Of a DNA stretch of 13,837 bases, positions 6,650-13,329 are shown piece after piece; the first letter of the stretch is position 1, and each line of letters begins with the position of its first letter. The translations under genes and the position numbers were made by a program. Below the pieces are notes generated by a model. It was not told where the DNA came from. It worked only from the letters and a program-made list of their open reading frames with translations, and did not search any database. The stretch covers positions 1 through 13,837 of the forward strand of contig DUNY01000036.1 of NCBI GenBank assembly GCA_012839145.1. Reading direction: 5' to 3'. The stretch is from Thermoanaerobacterales bacterium. GTDB lineage: Bacteria; Bacillota; Thermosediminibacteria; Thermosediminibacterales; Tepidanaerobacteraceae.

Positions 6650-8542
6650 TTATGCTTCCTGATCCAGCTGTTCATATAGCTGTTCCAAATCGGAAATCAG
6701 TTGATTGTATGCCGAATTTACCTTTTGTGCCTTTTTAGGGTTGCTGTATACTTCCGGTTGGCACAGCATGAGTTCAAGTTTTTCCAGTTCTATCTCTTTT
6801 TCCAGGATACTTTCTTCCAACTGTTTAAGCCTCTTTTTTTGCTGTCGTTTTTTCTCCCGCTCTTTTTTTTCTCGAAGTTTTGCTTTCCGTAACAAGGTTT
6901 TATTTTCCTTATACTCTGAAACGATATTTTTCTTGCTCTCGTTCTTTTTCTCCAAGTAATAATTGAAATTTCCCTTAATATCAGTTATATTACCATTATC
7001 AAATTCCCAAATTCGAGTGGCGATTTTCGTTAAAAAGTAGCGATCGTGAGAAACAGCGATAATGGTTCCGTTAAAAGATTTTAAAGCATCTTCCAACTTT
7101 TCTTTAGACAATATATCGAGATGATTTGTAGGCTCGTCCAGTAAAAGAAGATTTGCTCCTTGAAGGATTGCTTTTCCCAAAGCCACCCTGCTTTTTTCTC
7201 CGCCGCTTAGCACCTTAATGCTTTTTTCTACTTCATCACCTGAAAACAACAGACTTCCCAAAAAAGTTCTGATTTCTGTCAAGTTAAGACCCGGCGCCGA
7301 GCTCCACACTTCATCCAGAACTGTTGCATCAGGAGAAAGGTCCTGTTGTTCTTGATCAAAATATACCGGCTCAATCTGATGACCAAAATGTATACAGCCC
7401 TCCTGAGGTTCCAGTTCTCCCGCCAGAATCTTTAATAGGGTGGACTTGCCTATACCGTTGGGGCCGATTATCCCTATGCGCTCACCTCGGTAAACCTTTA
7501 AATTTACAGAGCTTAATATATTTTTATCTCCGTAGGAAAAGCCCAAATCATCAATTTGGAGCACCTCTTTCCCTCCGGTTTTTTGCATATCAAATCTCAG
7601 CCTAATAGAAGAACTGTTTTTCTTTAAAACGGATTTGGGAAGAAGCTCTTCCAGCCTTTTTCGACGACTTTCAGCCTGGATATAATTTCGATGAGAAATG
7701 AAGGTCTGAATGTTCCTTTCAAGCCTTTGGATCGCCTTTTGTCGTGTTTCCTCATGCTTTTCCGAAATTATCATAGCGGTATGTTTTTTGCTCATGAAAT
7801 CGGAATAATTGCCATTGTAAATCGAAACACGGTTGTTGTCCAGCTCGAAAATCTTTGTGGTTACATTATCAAGAAAATACCGGTCATGGGATACTACCAG
7901 CAGAGCTTTGGTATAGTCTTTTAAAAATCCCTCCAGCCACTGAATTGATTCTAAATCCAAATAATTTGTAGGTTCATCTAAAAGTAAAAGATCCGGTGAT
8001 TCCAAAAGAACCTGACCTAAAGCAAGACGGGTTTTTTGGCCTCCGCTAAGATTTGAAATAGGGGTGTCCTCATCATCGAAACCCAAGCCTCGAAGGACTC
8101 CTCGTATTCGGCTATCCACTTCAAATCCGCCGTTTGTCTTAAAGTCTTCGAAAATTACGGAATATCGGTGCATCAGGCTCTCTAACCGTGCTTCATCCTC
8201 ATAGACTTCCGGAGAAGACATCAAGTTTTCCAATTCACGTAATTCTTTTTCCTGATTGTGCTGCTCTTGGAAAATAGAAGAAAGAGCCTCCCCAATAGTT
8301 TGATGGCTTTCAAATTTTGCACCTTGAGCCAGATAACCAATCTTGATACCTCGTTCAATGAAAAGATTTCCACTGTCATAGGTCATTTTTCCAGCAAGTA
8401 TTTTAAGTAAAGTGGATTTGCCTGTCCCGTTCAAACCCACCAATCCTATTTTATCCTTTTCTTCAATTAAAAAATTGACGTCTTCAAGGATATTGTCTAT
8501 ACCAAAACTTTTATTTAAATTCGTCACATTTAATATAGCCAT
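6650..8542 (-). CDS. ABC-F family ATPase (YdiF/Uup-like), ribosome-associated
   Basis: A 630-residue protein with two ABC domains and no membrane segments, so an ABC-F translation factor or resistance-type ATPase acting at the ribosomal E site, not a transporter. Domain 1: Walker A GLNGTGKS 36-43, LSGGQ 165-169, Walker B LLLLDE 185-190, SHDRYFL 218-224. A charged inter-domain linker spans about 245-325. Domain 2: GPNGIGKS 360-367, LSGGE 445-449, LLLLDE 465-470. The C-terminal tail (540-630) is a Lys/Glu-rich coiled coil, as in Uup and YdiF. The SD is GGTGAT just before ATG 8542. tsaD follows by 14 bases. In Bacillus, ydiF also neighbours the t6A genes, which supports YdiF over a dedicated antibiotic-resistance ABC-F. 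The exact subfamily is uncertain. Confidence 0.92.
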
Positions 8543-8566
8543 TTTTAATCACCATATATAGAGTTT

Positions 8567-8595
8567 AGTGTAAGGTAAACCATTTTTTTTTGCAA
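8567..8595 (-). promoter_or_regulatory. Likely promoter of the ABC-F-tsaD operon
   Basis: On the minus strand TTGCAA (8595-8590) and TACACT (8572-8567) are separated by 17 bases that include a run of A residues, which would bend the DNA. Transcription would start near 8560, leaving a leader of about 18 bases, too short for an attenuator of the kind seen before many ABC-F resistance genes. A perfect 12-bp palindrome, TATGTTAACATA, lies just upstream (8604-8615). Confidence 0.5.
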
Positions 8596-8689
8596 GTTAA
8601 ATATATGTTAACATAAGCTTAGTGATAATAACAGTGAAAGTTAAAGCAAAATAGTTCAATAAACGAAAATTAACGAGGTAATTTGAAAA

Positions 8690-8824
8690 ATGAATCCAAA
8701 TAAACATATCAAACATTTGAGAGTTTGTTTTTTAGCGAGGGTTGAAAATAATACTTCATAAGTGAGAAATGTTAGACTGTATGAAAACTATTATGAAGCA
8801 AAAAAAGAAGATGCGTCAAGGTAG
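8690..8824 (+). pseudogene. Possible decayed serine-recombinase N-terminus
   Basis: From ATG 8690, with GAGGT upstream at 8675-8679, the frame reads MNPNKHIKHLRVCFLARVE. This resembles the catalytic opening (RVA-YARVST) of large serine recombinases. A TAA at 8759-8761 interrupts it, and the same frame continues VRNVRLYENYYEAKKE to a TAG at 8822-8824. Restoring Gln (CAA) at the first stop gives spacing close to the family's ARVST...Q...YE..YY pattern. Catalytic Ser is not preserved (ARVE). This is a weak, eye-based resemblance over about 40 codons, with nothing recognisable after it. The rest of 8616-8938 is AT-rich and shows me no intact gene. Confidence 0.22.
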
Positions 8825-8938
8825 AGGAGAGGCGGTGGAAGGGATAAGTAAACATCTCGGTACACTGCAACAAAGAATAAAAAAAGCCGAAATTATAAAA
8901 ATAAAAACGAGAAGTTGGATTCTTGGATTTTATTATAC

Positions 8939-9006
8939 AAAAAAGAGCCCGCAGTGACCTTCGCTACAGCTGTTATGAACCTCTACACAGCCCACTGCGA
9001 TCTTTC
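8939..9006 (-). terminator. 3' terminator region of the structured RNA, with a competing local hairpin
   Basis: Six T residues (8944-8939, minus strand) end the RNA. The preceding strand can pair with the RNA's 5' end (P1) or locally: TCGCAGTGG (9000-8992) with TCACTGCGG (8957-8949), extended by GAAAGA (9006-9001) pairing into the U tract past a 2-nt bulge. An inner stem GCTGT/ACAGC (8991-8987/8973-8969) stacks on the local form. The local form has the A-tract/U-tract shape of an intrinsic terminator. Confidence 0.6.
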
Positions 9007-9376
9007 GACTGCAATAGACCGTTACAAAGCCCATAACAACCTATGCTCGACCATCATGAGTACCTTAGAAGCCGGTAGCAACCACCCGGCTGCTACGGAC
9101 CTCCAATCAATGCAACAAAGTATTGCGGGGCAACACTCCATATTGTATTAATCTGCGGAACCCATGATGATCTTAGCTCGAAGACTACACCTCTTTTTTG
9201 ACCCTATGATAATAGTTTGGCTATATCATAGAGCCTTACAAGACGCATAGCCCTCTGCCCGCCGGCCGATGCCGAGCCCTAAAACTTTAGACCCGACATC
9301 GACCTTTGGCCGACCACCGGAAAACCCTCCGTTGGATCCTCCGGCAGTCTTGGCTCAGCCACTGCGAACCCTTCGA
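8939..9376 (-). ncRNA. Large structured noncoding RNA of unassigned class, about 435 nt
   Basis: No frame here codes convincingly, and the block is visibly richer in G and C than its surroundings. Read on the minus strand it folds by hand. P1: 9371-9358 with 8958-8945, 14 consecutive pairs closing the whole RNA, followed by six U. P2: 9349-9340 with 9321-9312, 10 bp. P3: 9304-9287 with 9282-9264, about 18 bp. P4: 9235-9224 with 9211-9200, 12 bp. P5: 9172-9161 with 9060-9049, 12 bp, enclosing P6 (9136-9130/9126-9120, 7 bp) and P7 (9096-9088/9083-9075, 9 bp). P8: 9046-9034 with 9024-9011, 13 bp with one bulge. I see no RNase P GAGGAAAGUCC, tmRNA or SRP landmarks. OLE RNA is a possible relative, but this is shorter than the roughly 600 nt I recall for OLE and I see no OLE-associated membrane protein gene beside it. 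It begins about 35 bases after the SLH gene's stop. Confidence 0.82.
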
Positions 9377-9402
9377 TATTATTCTACCCTTTGCAGTTTC
9401 AA
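9376..9402 (-). promoter_or_regulatory. Possible promoter for the structured RNA
   Basis: On the minus strand TTGAAA (9402-9397) lies 15 bases before TAATAT (9381-9376). Both are between the SLH gene's stop codon and the start of P1. The spacing is short, so the RNA could instead be processed from the SLH transcript, since no terminator separates them. Confidence 0.35.
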
Positions 9403-9409
9403 TTATTCA

Positions 9410-11569
9410 CTAATTACTATCATTTTTAAGCATACGGACCAAAATCGTTGCAGCCTGGGCTCGATTGACACTGTTTTTAGGTTTAAAGTTGCCGTCATCG
9501 GCTGAGGATAGGAGTTTAAGGCCTATTGCAATGGCAACATGACCTTTATACTCAGGTTTTATGGAAGCAATATCTTTTACTGTATCTTTATAAATATCAG
9601 AAAGACTTGCTACTTTTTCAAATCCCATTGCCCTTACTACAAAAGCCGTCGCTTTTTCCCGGGAAAGAAATCTTTTAACCTCTGCTTCACCGGGCTTTAT
9701 CCAACCCAGCTTCAGGGCTGCATCGATATATTTCTGGATATCCTCATTAGATTGTGAATCTTGGGATTCAAGCTTAATAATTGGGATAGGGGTGTCATCG
9801 GAGATTCTATGATTTTTTGCTATCATCAAAAGCTTAACGAAATCACCTTCCGTTATGTCCTCATCGGGTCGGAATTTATCTTCCGCAGATCTGATAACAC
9901 CAAGATTCACCAATAGTTGTATGTCATTTTCAGCCCAATGTCCTTTTATGTCAGTAAATATTGTCTTGATTTCTTCTTCAACAGGTTTTCCACTGTAGTC
10001 TAAAGGTTTAAAATCAAAGGCATCAAAAGTGTAGGACTTTGAAGGCTTGATTTTGTAAACTAGTTTATAATTGCTAGTTTGTTCTTTAGAGTTGTATATA
10101 GATGCATAAACCAATTCCAGCCCTACATTCTTTATAAAACGAGCGTCTACATCATCTTTTGTCAAAACTTCGTCTGCATTTGGGAACTCTCTATCATGCC
10201 ATCTCATCCGGTAGCCGGTTATTTCACCGTTTTGAGCATCCACAGTTAGATTAAACCCATTAGCGGTATAAGGAATATCATTTACCAATCTGGTATAGTT
10301 AAAATAATGTTCACGGATTTTCTCCGGGCTAGTTACCTGCTCTCTTTCTTCTTCCAGTTGAACATTTTCAAAGCGATTGAGCTGGAATTTCTTCAAAAAC
10401 TCTTCTGCCTTCTTTTGAGCCGCTGCTCTGCCATATTTTTGCTTAAATTCTTTTGAATACCTACCATAGTCGTAAAAATTAAAACTCAAAAGTTCGGAGT
10501 TTATAGCATGGACCTGGGCATATATTGATCCGCCTTCATCGTCATCAGTTTTTTGCCAATCGATATTCCAAATCTTTTGGTCGGGATTGTCATAGTCCTC
10601 ATAAAGATTTGCCGAACGTTGTTTATAACCATCGGGAATTGAAATATACTTTTTTACAATATCTATGGCAGCCTCTTTTGAAATGCAATTTTTTGTGACT
10701 TCAACCTCTTTGATTTCAACAGGCGTGAAACCGGAATCACTCATCTTCATAGATTCTTCTGCAGCCCCTCTACCATAGACATCATAATATTCATCCTCAA
10801 GAAGCTTCCCGGTAACAGCATCAATTAAAACTCCACGAGGTCCATCTAAAGTATAAACCAGTTTTATATTTTCATCCCGGGTACGATAGTCGAAATATCG
10901 TTGGTAAACCAGCCTTAACCCTACTTCATCACTAAAAACCTTTTCCGCATCTTCCATGGAAATCAGATTTCCAGCCGGAGGTAAAGGTTCCCAGGACCAA
11001 CTAAAGGAATAATTTTCAATTTCCCCGGTATGGGCACCCACCCTCATATTGATACCATTACCCTCAACAGGTATATCATTTTCAATGCGGGTGAAATTGA
11101 AGTAATAACTGTCACGGTAACTAGTGCGTTCCAAAGGATAGACAGGTTCCTCTCGGTCTATCAATCTTGTTTTGGCAAATTCTGAAGGCTGTAATTTCTT
11201 AGCAAAATTTTCAGCTATTTTCCTTGCTTCTTCCTCGTTATACTTGGGTATGGGCAAAGTCTTTCTGTCAGGGTCATAACCCTTATACATATATATGTGC
11301 AATATATCGCCGGTATCTGCATCAATACTTGCACTCAAACTACCGTAAGGTGATTTGGTATTAGACCAGTTCAGTTCCCAAACTTTCCTCTTGCCGTCAT
11401 TTTCGTTATAGTTTATATTAAATCGGTCATAGGAAGTCGTATCAAATATGTTTTTAACTTTTTCCACCGCTTTTTCCTGGGAAATGACCGTATTAGTCAA
11501 AGCCAGGACCGGAACAACACTAGAAAAAACAAAGGTTAATACTAAAATCAAGGCCAATCTTTTTTTCAT
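9410..11569 (-). CDS. Secreted, S-layer-anchored YcdB/YcdC-repeat protein with three SLH domains
   Basis: A 719-residue exported protein. A Sec signal peptide (basic MKKR, hydrophobic 5-22, likely cut after VLA near 23) is followed by two tandem homologous halves (about 28-265 and 290-525). Each carries a DIPxxxNGxN strand and a DAxTG/DAQNGEI turn, then VGLxLVY and KLVY strands, resembling YcdB/YcdC and PepSY-like modules. Three SLH domains follow: about 538-590 (FTDIKGHWAENDI), 605-650 and 656-717 (NRAQAATILVRM), which normally bind pyruvylated secondary wall polymer. PepSY-like modules are thought to inhibit or chaperone peptidases, and that role here is inference. AAGGAGG precedes ATG 11569. 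It faces glpP divergently across 200 bp, and the structured RNA lies directly downstream on the same strand. Confidence 0.85.
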   Translation of the reverse strand: MKKRLALILVLTFVFSSVVPVLALTNTVISQEKAVEKVKNIFDTTSYDRFNINYNENDGKRKVWELNWSNTKSPYGSLSASIDADTGDILHIYMYKGYDPDRKTLPIPKYNEEEARKIAENFAKKLQPSEFAKTRLIDREEPVYPLERTSYRDSYYFNFTRIENDIPVEGNGINMRVGAHTGEIENYSFSWSWEPLPPAGNLISMEDAEKVFSDEVGLRLVYQRYFDYRTRDENIKLVYTLDGPRGVLIDAVTGKLLEDEYYDVYGRGAAEESMKMSDSGFTPVEIKEVEVTKNCISKEAAIDIVKKYISIPDGYKQRSANLYEDYDNPDQKIWNIDWQKTDDDEGGSIYAQVHAINSELLSFNFYDYGRYSKEFKQKYGRAAAQKKAEEFLKKFQLNRFENVQLEEEREQVTSPEKIREHYFNYTRLVNDIPYTANGFNLTVDAQNGEITGYRMRWHDREFPNADEVLTKDDVDARFIKNVGLELVYASIYNSKEQTSNYKLVYKIKPSKSYTFDAFDFKPLDYSGKPVEEEIKTIFTDIKGHWAENDIQLLVNLGVIRSAEDKFRPDEDITEGDFVKLLMIAKNHRISDDTPIPIIKLESQDSQSNEDIQKYIDAALKLGWIKPGEAEVKRFLSREKATAFVVRAMGFEKVASLSDIYKDTVKDIASIKPEYKGHVAIAIGLKLLSSADDGNFKPKNSVNRAQAATILVRMLKNDSN

Positions 11570-12358: not shown

Positions 12359-13030
12359 ATGCCTCTTAGTTATCTTGAGTTAACTGCAAGATTGATACTA
12401 GCGATTTTACTTGGTGGAATCATAGGCTTGGAAAGGGAAACCATTAATAAGCCGGCTGGATTCAGAACCCATATTTTGGTTTGCCTGGGATCTGCAATTA
12501 TCATGCTTGTATCCCTTTATATATTCAGCCAATTTCATGGTATAACCAATGTGGATCCGGGGCGAATACCCGCACAGGTTATTAGCGGTATTGGATTTCT
12601 TGGGGCAGGCACTATAATTATAGAAGGGGCTACCGTCAAAGGGCTTACTACAGCAGCCAGTTTATGGGCAGTATCGGCCATCGGCTTGGCCGTAGGGGTT
12701 GGTTTTTACTACGGTGCTGTTGTATCTACATTTTTAATACTTTTAACCCTTATCGCTTTCAACAAACTAGAGTGGTTCGTTTTAAAAAAGAAATTTTTAC
12801 AGCCTTTAACATTGTTGGTTAAAGATACCCCGGGTCAACTGGGTAAAGTGGGTTCATCTCTGGGAGAGATGAATATCAGTATAAAAGATGTAAAAATGGA
12901 AAACATTGAAGATGGTAAACTGATGATTACATTGATGATACAAAAGATAAACGGATTGGAGTTTGAAGAAATAAAGCAAAAACTCAAACAAATAGATGGA
13001 ATATACGACATAGAAACCGAATTTGATTAG
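12359..13030 (+). CDS. MgtC/SapB-family membrane protein with C-terminal ACT-like domain
   Basis: A 223-residue membrane protein. The N-terminal MgtC domain shows hydrophobic segments at about 7-24, 38-57, 70-88 and 98-135. It has the family hallmarks GGIIGLERE (19-27), [11 protein letters not shown], the [15 protein letters not shown] block and [20 protein letters not shown]. The C-terminal cytoplasmic part (about 148-223) looks like an ACT-type ligand-binding domain. MgtC proteins of pathogens modulate the F-type ATP synthase or phosphate and Mg2+ physiology. In free-living Firmicutes the role is open. GAGGTGAT precedes ATG 12359 and overlaps the glpP stop, so the pair forms one operon. Its TAG overlaps the stop codon of the convergent FlhB-like gene by 3 bases. 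Confidence 0.9.
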
Positions 13031-13329
13031 TCATCCAAATCTGAGTCGGGAATACTTGCCGCATCTACAGCATAAATAAATGCCAGAATTTCAGCTACAG
13101 CCCCATAAAGCTCAGGCGGGATTTCTAGGCCCACATCAAGTTGAATCAATGCTTCAACCAAAGGTGCGTCTTTGTATATGGCTATATTTTCTTTGCGAGC
13201 CAGTTCTAAGATTTTTTCTGCCAATAAACCTTTTCCGGAAGCAGTGATTTTTGGGGCAGCATCTTCGGCGCTGTTGTACTTTAGAGCTACTGCCTTTTTG
13301 CTTTTCGCAATGGATAATTTTTCACTCAT
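13027..13329 (-). CDS. Stand-alone FlhB C-terminal-domain protein (FlhX/YlqH-like)
   Basis: A 100-residue soluble protein matching only the cytoplasmic, autocleaving domain of FlhB/EscU/YscU-type export switch proteins. Recognisable family blocks are KAVALKYN (12-19), [38 protein letters not shown] and [17 protein letters not shown]. The NPTH cleavage motif that precedes AVALKY in true FlhB is absent (AKSKK here), so it should not self-cleave, and there are no membrane helices. AGAGGTGAG precedes ATG 13329. It follows a FliK/YlqG-like gene by 28 bases, the same pairing as ylqG-ylqH in Bacillus. It may interact with the flagellar export gate or FliK, but its role in that pairing is not settled as far as I know. 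It converges on mgtC with overlapping stop codons. Confidence 0.87.

Follow-up and report, generated by a model that had tools for sequence, protein, structure and literature searches.

The window analyzed here (the whole stretch of DNA, 13,837 nt) encodes on its minus strand a large structured RNA of ~436 nt (8939..9374) that appears to represent an RNA class not yet described, being new relative to Rfam and to the literature searched. Its fold is conserved, its 5' end is preceded by a promoter signature of the forespore type, and its occurrence is nearly restricted to genomes encoding SpoIVA. We consider it highly probable that this is a real RNA class with forespore-type control. The full explanation that we favor, at a probability of roughly 0.6, is that it is a new trans-acting forespore RNA that would act as a multi-site scaffold gathering copies of a protein or of itself.

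Locus and fold of the RNA

The source genome (G000; 2.58 Mb in 493 contigs) contains a single copy of the element. It lies in an intergenic gap of 867 bp (8543-9409), bordered on one side by an ABC-F gene (6650-8542, minus strand) and on the other by a PepSY/DUF4901-SLH gene (9410-11569, minus strand), in agreement with the original prediction of a gap without an intact gene. When the minus strand of 8935-9385 (451 nt) was folded, it reached -236 kcal/mol, compared to a mean of -142.8 (sd 5.97) for 100 dinucleotide shuffles, none of which was as low (z -15.61). Since the opposite (plus) strand gave a z of just -3.64 in the same shuffle test, the RNA strand is the minus strand. Judging from P1, the 5' end probably lies near 9374, while the 3' end would fall in the U tract described below. 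Between the RNA and the ABC-F gene are ~400 nt of A/T-rich DNA (8543-8938), where the listed ORF is just 62 aa and no RNA family matches above chance. Elsewhere in the window, 13027-13329 (minus strand) encodes a 100-aa protein that resembles the C-terminal part of FlhB at a score below curated cut-offs.

A single multi-helix hub gives rise to six arms, named P1 to P6. P1 joins both ends of the RNA, with its 5' strand (9374-9357) pairing with its 3' strand (8959-8942), a pairing supported by covariation, and it contains the wobble motif GNU/GNU, described below, at 9370-9368/8948-8946. Straight after P1 comes a U6 tract (8944-8939), and the two together look like an intrinsic terminator; the U run is absent in some relatives. 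A closing P1 followed by six U had been predicted, and the helix is slightly longer than originally drawn, with the end coordinates agreeing within 2 nt. The P2 hairpin (9349-9312) is formed by 9349-9334/9327-9312, with GNU/GNU at 9338-9336/9325-9323, and the P3 hairpin (9304-9264) by 9304-9291/9277-9264, with GNU/GNU at 9293-9291/9277-9275. P3 is directly preceded by the joint GUCGGCCAAAGG, which is one letter off in 1 of 18 aligned sequences of the class. The P4 arm (9255-9180) consists of P4 (9255-9240/9195-9180) and an outer P4b (9235-9220/9213-9200) with GNU/GNU at 9234-9232/9203-9201. The P5 arm (9177-9045), which we modeled as R1 (see below), comprises P5 (9177-9157/9064-9045), a side stem around 9153-9105, and an apical P5c (9104-9088/9083-9067) with GNU/GNU at 9101-9099/9072-9070. 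Finally, the P6 arm (9041-8968) has two GNU/GNU motifs in P6 (9041-9026/8983-8968) and a third in the outer P6b (9021-9007/9002-8988), which is capped by the GNRA loop GAAA (9006-9003).

This structure is supported by covariation. RNAalifold, applied to an alignment of eighteen copies from genomes of the class Thermosediminibacteria (A5), gave 151 pairs, with 98.1% of cells pairing. Changes on both sides were seen in 83 of these pairs, compared to 41.8 (sd 3.5) in shuffled alignments, with 0 of 500 shuffles as high. Sliding the structure along A5 gave at most 24 such pairs; the structure came from A5 itself and is favored in this control, but the gap to the slid values is far larger than that. 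In a wider set, in which 27 of 96 aligned sequences were dropped at 90% identity to leave 69 non-redundant sequences, 94.6% of cells pair. The original prediction of at least eight minus-strand helices, some with G-U pairs, is borne out by twelve helices with several conserved G-U pairs upheld by covariation. More broadly, it had proposed a large structured RNA of unassigned class, to be checked by covariation, by a search for homologues, and against Rfam; the covariation is strong, relatives exist across the family, order, class, and phylum, and Rfam gave no match, so the proposal stands. Neither the promoter-like elements at 9408-9380 nor the connection with sporulating genomes was part of that prediction.

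Several other readings of the locus were rejected. The repeat search reported no DNA inverted repeat of at least 12 nt, and the plus strand folds far worse; no tRNA or tmRNA was found; and a phage or plasmid origin is contradicted by 0 matches in phage and plasmid collections and by an exact pattern from the P2-P3 region that was unmatched in viral_contigs. A protein gene is likewise rejected, as there is no conserved sense reading frame (the longest sense ORF per sequence has a median of 52 aa and a maximum of 125, in G007, with differing start positions; n = 69) and the sequence changes track base pairs.

The most distinctive element of the fold is a symmetric double-wobble motif, in which 5'-GNU-3' is paired with 5'-GNU-3', found in eight places across the 69 non-redundant sequences. 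For this count, a wobble pair was one that is G·U or U·G in at least half of the sequences, and a motif was a G·U followed by a U·G two pairs on. Motifs in the reversed order numbered 0, and permuted pair labels gave a mean of 0.80 and a maximum of 5 in 20,000. The weakest members are a U·G present in 54% of sequences (P6) and a G·U present in 62% (P6 base). Counted by hand, GNU/GNU falls on pairs 12-14 of the main helix in P1, P2, P3, and P6, numbering outward from the hub. Two loops are mostly of the GNRA type, namely P5c (52 of 65 sequences having both closing letters) and P6b (58 of 61); the window copy's P5c loop is GGGU, which is non-GNRA.

Distribution and possible arm repetition

By DNA similarity search, the RNA is present in 8 of the 13 genomes of the family Tepidanaerobacteraceae and in 15 of the 22 genomes of the order Thermosediminibacterales, counting G020, which has a shortened remnant only. 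This remnant (L029; G020:C1:1899696-1899795) sits in a one-contig genome with sigma-G and SASP genes. R1, a covariance model of the P5 arm seeded with 8 family sequences, matched 18 of 26 class genomes at E ≤ 0.01, with 10 of the 18 lying outside its seeds. An exact pattern from the P2-P3 region matched 89 stretches in a named collection of 84,980 species, and 80 of these, containing 82 copies, were fetched and examined as named loci. Carriers include Carboxydocella thermautotrophica, Thermosediminibacter litoriperuensis, and Acetivibrio mesophilus. R1, which represents a different arm from the fetch pattern, matched 76 of the 80 at E ≤ 2.7e-6, five of them from R1 seed genomes (L083, L088, L099, L101, and L103); the four that it missed comprise two loci truncated close to the element (L056 and L131) and two variants (L062 and L113). 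The 80 listed titles are Bacillota but for two metagenome bins (L105 and L126), labeled Deltaproteobacteria and Actinobacteria. Since both bins encode SpoIVA, we take these labels as wrong, and the bins are probably mislabeled Bacillota. At the level of the phylum, R2, a covariance model of P2-P3 built from 46 diverse sequences, matched, at E ≤ 1e-5, 150 of 398 genomes drawn from Bacillota; the matches span 109 of 267 genera, and the sample includes some R2 seed genomes.

The models also match within the RNA itself. R2 gave weaker second matches inside the same RNA at 49 of the 80 loci (E ≤ 0.05), and R1 gave weak matches to other arms, a pattern that fits arm-module repetition as the origin of the RNA, or merely shared junction words. 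In G336, a short form (L229; G336:C45:105443 onward, plus strand) is matched by R2 and not by R1, and by eye consists of P1, P2, P3, and then straight the 3' strand of P1. It adjoins spoIVA and is preceded by a promoter-like stretch, GTATA...CATAATA, also noted by eye. If this three-arm form is real, then the arms are separable modules. Other variants include an insertion in the P2 loop in L097 and L134, which are contigs of the bin SKW257. Multiple copies were seen in Sporotomaculum syntrophicum (L091 743-1304; two copies ~508 nt apart with similar upstream regions) and in L058 (two copies 2.6 kb apart), and L118 has a second R2 match ~3.7 kb away.

Promoter signature and link to sporulation

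Upstream of the RNA in the window lie a -35 element, GAATA (9408-9404), and, after a 17-nt spacer, a -10 element, TAGAATA (9386-9380), both on the minus strand and both of the sigma-F/sigma-G type by a de novo motif search and a sigma-factor comparison; the RNA begins 6 nt further on. The upstream signature of the RNA reads GNATA-N17/18-CANAATA, which is of the forespore sigma-F/sigma-G type. After 19 near-duplicates were removed from the 96 upstream regions, an unseeded two-block search of the remaining 77 (best of 12 starts) returned [G/T]NATA[A/T]-gap-GNCANAAT as the best motif, its gap measuring 14 or 15 in 59 of them. The motif totaled 912 bits, compared to 571-612 in five shuffled sets that were given 4 starts each, fewer than the real set. 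The published B. subtilis consensus for sigma-F is GTATA...GGNAANAMTR, that for sigma-G is GNATA...CAWAMTA (PMC3416734), and the C. difficile consensus for both factors is described as very similar (PMC3789822). Across all 96 upstream regions, near-duplicates included, the mean match to the consensus of each factor exceeded shuffles by 2.61 sd for sigma-G and 2.50 sd for sigma-F, compared to just 0.10 (sigma-A), 0.56 (sigma-E), and 0.36 (sigma-K), where the sd is that of single shuffled sequences. The sigma-A words and all spacings used in this comparison are those that we take to be standard. A loose promoter pattern was found in 52 of 94 upstream regions, whereas shuffled sets averaged 12 and reached at most 22. 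Judged by sequence, the promoter type at the 5' end is thus that of the forespore (sigma-F/sigma-G) regulon, to which the RNA may belong.

SASP genes of the same class have GTATA-N17-TATATTA-like promoters at the same place. A looser pattern with a fixed start matched 25 of 30 SASP, 62 of 96 RNA, and 46 of 273 control upstreams, where the scanned windows spanned 72 nt for the RNA and 135 nt for the other two sets; the match in L179 lies over the ribosome site, off its evident promoter. A matrix trained on the RNA upstreams, which places 81 of 96 of those upstreams above the control 95% mark, separated SASP genes from controls weakly: 7 and then 9 of the 30 SASP genes were located, with 3 of 7 and then 2 of 9 above that mark (Mann-Whitney p 0.004 for n = 7 and 0.002 for n = 9). 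The resemblance between SASP and RNA upstreams is therefore an agreement in architecture and not a strong statistic.

In the 398-genome sample, the RNA is nearly confined to spore formers. SpoIVA is encoded in 335 of the 398 sampled Bacillota genomes, comprising 147 of the 150 with an R2 match and 188 of the 248 without one (Fisher p 9e-11, uncorrected for ancestry). The three R2-matched genomes outside the 147 are G101 (97% complete), G254 (75%), and G300 (61%). Among the named genomes that carry the RNA, SpoIVA was present in 15 of 15 tested. In G068, G315, and G376 (L230, L231, and L232), full-length copies with both R1 and R2 matches lie right beside spoIVA and point toward its end in convergent orientation.

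Within the class, the presence of sigma-G supports the link to sporulation only partly. Sigma-G scored above the cut-off in 23 of 26 class genomes, and six of these (G006, G010, G011, G015, G020, and G025) are without a complete RNA. G012, which lacks sigma-G above the cut-off, SASP genes, and any RNA match, fits the sporulation link. G009 (88% complete) also lacks sigma-G above the cut-off and the RNA, yet has SASP genes and says little, and G008 (68% complete) has the RNA and no sigma-G above the cut-off. Since G010 and G011 have sigma-G and no match, and G020 has sigma-G and a remnant, the RNA is not required for sporulation as such.

Relation to known RNAs and candidate functions

An Rfam search (4227 families) gave no match on the RNA in the window at the gathering score or at E ≤ 10 (best E 1.8), and the same search across 144 kb from 18 of the named loci gave six matches, none of them on the RNA. 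CRISPR-DR21, plant-virus xrRNA, mir-548, nhaA-I, and bxd_5 scored below the gathering score (E 1.8 to 8.2) and were set aside as chance matches. The models for OLE, ROOL, GOLLD, and raiA were unmatched at the RNA. OLE, which had been put forward as the first comparison, is excluded: its model (RF01071) does not match here, and OLE itself lies elsewhere in this genome, at G000:C458:1625-2242 (528 bits). OLE was found in 22 of 26 class genomes, including G012, which is unmatched for the new RNA. A search of the literature, with supplements and subscription journals outside its scope, found no account of such an RNA; the section of PMC11109978 on its 55 high-ranking candidates describes one of them, so an earlier listing of this RNA there is possible.

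In size and complexity, the new RNA appears nearest to OLE, ROOL, and GOLLD, and by the tests made it belongs to none of them. OLE is, as far as its published accounts cited here go, similarly large, multi-helix, found in anaerobic Bacillota, and unsolved in its precise function, but its length is ~600 nt (PMC9723947), with 616 model positions, compared to ~436 nt for the new RNA, which thus falls short of the OLE length. GOLLD, ROOL, and OLE are described as RNA-only oligomers, ROOL and GOLLD being large ornate RNAs that form cages (PMC12286853). The new RNA shares the large, ornate character of ROOL and GOLLD; it differs in leaving their Rfam models unmatched and in the exact pattern being unmatched in viral_contigs. 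ModT (raiA motif RNA) is reported as a structured trans-acting RNA of Bacillota that alters sporulation frequency via c-di-GMP levels (PMC11706538). The new RNA would resemble it as a structured trans-acting Bacillota RNA tied to sporulation, but the raiA model is unmatched and the new RNA has a forespore-type promoter. CsfG is an RNA linked to sporulation, and it and Bvs196, both compared by description only, share that link with the new RNA; Bvs196 is reported as a sporulation-linked RNA of 294 nt from Bacillus velezensis (PMC9147052).

Under the explanation that we favor, RNA polymerase with sigma-F or sigma-G would transcribe the RNA in the forespore, and the transcript would fold into a rigid six-arm wheel around one hub. 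The eight GNU/GNU repeats would be equivalent docking sites, with which this pre-formed scaffold could bring together multiple copies of a protein present in the forespore, or of the RNA itself, and the resulting particle, which may be stable in the spore, would serve dormancy or revival. Our estimate for this explanation is no higher because a protein scaffold and an RNA-only oligomer are not told apart here. Counting against it, the wobble motifs could instead serve RNA packing or stability. A more specific version, which we advance tentatively, is that a forespore-only RNA assembles through its eight equivalent wobble sites and its GNRA loops into a stable RNA or RNP body in the mature spore, where it shelters, or sequesters, some component on which revival depends. 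Such an RNA would be large, structured, and devoted to the interior of the spore, and to our knowledge it has no counterpart.

One alternative is that the RNA is a cis-regulatory leader, such as a riboswitch or attenuator, of a downstream gene, as the terminator-like P1 and U6 at the end of the window copy might suggest. However, the downstream genes vary by lineage and lie on either strand, and the RNA has its own promoter motif. Our survey of neighbors covered 91 distinct RNA loci and 308 adjacent ORFs, for which a simple ORF-calling script was used. The largest cluster spanned 10 of the 91 loci, all in Thermosediminibacterales, and the next 9, 6, and 6. Other lineages have mostly different neighbors on either strand, three of them with a SpoVT-like gene (named by eye), and in G001 and G007 an opposite-strand gene intervenes between the RNA and the gene found ahead of it in the window. 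Since no neighbor cluster exceeds 10 of 91 loci, the RNA looks free-standing, and since no neighbor is widely shared, we reject the leader as highly improbable. With its forespore-type promoter, the RNA appears to be transcribed as a unit of its own.

The remaining alternatives concern what the repeated motif is for. The RNA could be a protein-free homo-oligomer that functions as an assembled particle, with the P5c and P6b GNRA loops of one copy docking into the regularly placed wobble motifs of another. Consistent with this are the predominance of GNRA loops among the sequences, the regular spacing of the symmetric wobble motifs, and the very high stability predicted without protein. GOLLD, ROOL, and OLE, which form RNA-only oligomers (PMC12286853), provide precedent, with cages for ROOL and GOLLD and a dimer for OLE. 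The P5c loop of the window copy is, however, the non-GNRA GGGU, and we consider this reading doubtful. We think it unlikely that the RNA is instead a regulator that sequesters one protein in the late forespore, in the way that 6S RNA does with RNA polymerase, with the repeats as copies of one putative binding site. The forespore-type promoter, the free-standing gene, and the repeated motif would suit such a role, although the 6S model is unmatched at the RNA and scores elsewhere in L105. Alternatively, the wobble motifs may merely shield long helices from RNase III cleavage, making the RNA a stable store or by-product that has no role in binding. The helices are indeed long and near-perfect, and the wobble motifs lie roughly one helical turn out from the hub, but plain protection needs no bias toward one motif type present eight times with its reverse order at 0, nor would it need the unpaired joint letters to be kept in the 18 A5 sequences, and we find this reading quite unlikely.

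Endospore formation is among the best studied bacterial developmental programs and has been described almost wholly via proteins. A large conserved RNA under forespore-type control would be a missing part of that program. Its architecture adds to the few known for large bacterial RNAs, and the eight equivalent motifs and two GNRA loops yield testable predictions at single-pair resolution, for which the sporulating genomes without the RNA, the G020 remnant, and the three-arm short form in G336 are natural comparisons. Altogether, the way in which bacteria form dormant spores or revive them may involve this RNA as a component that has so far gone unnoticed.
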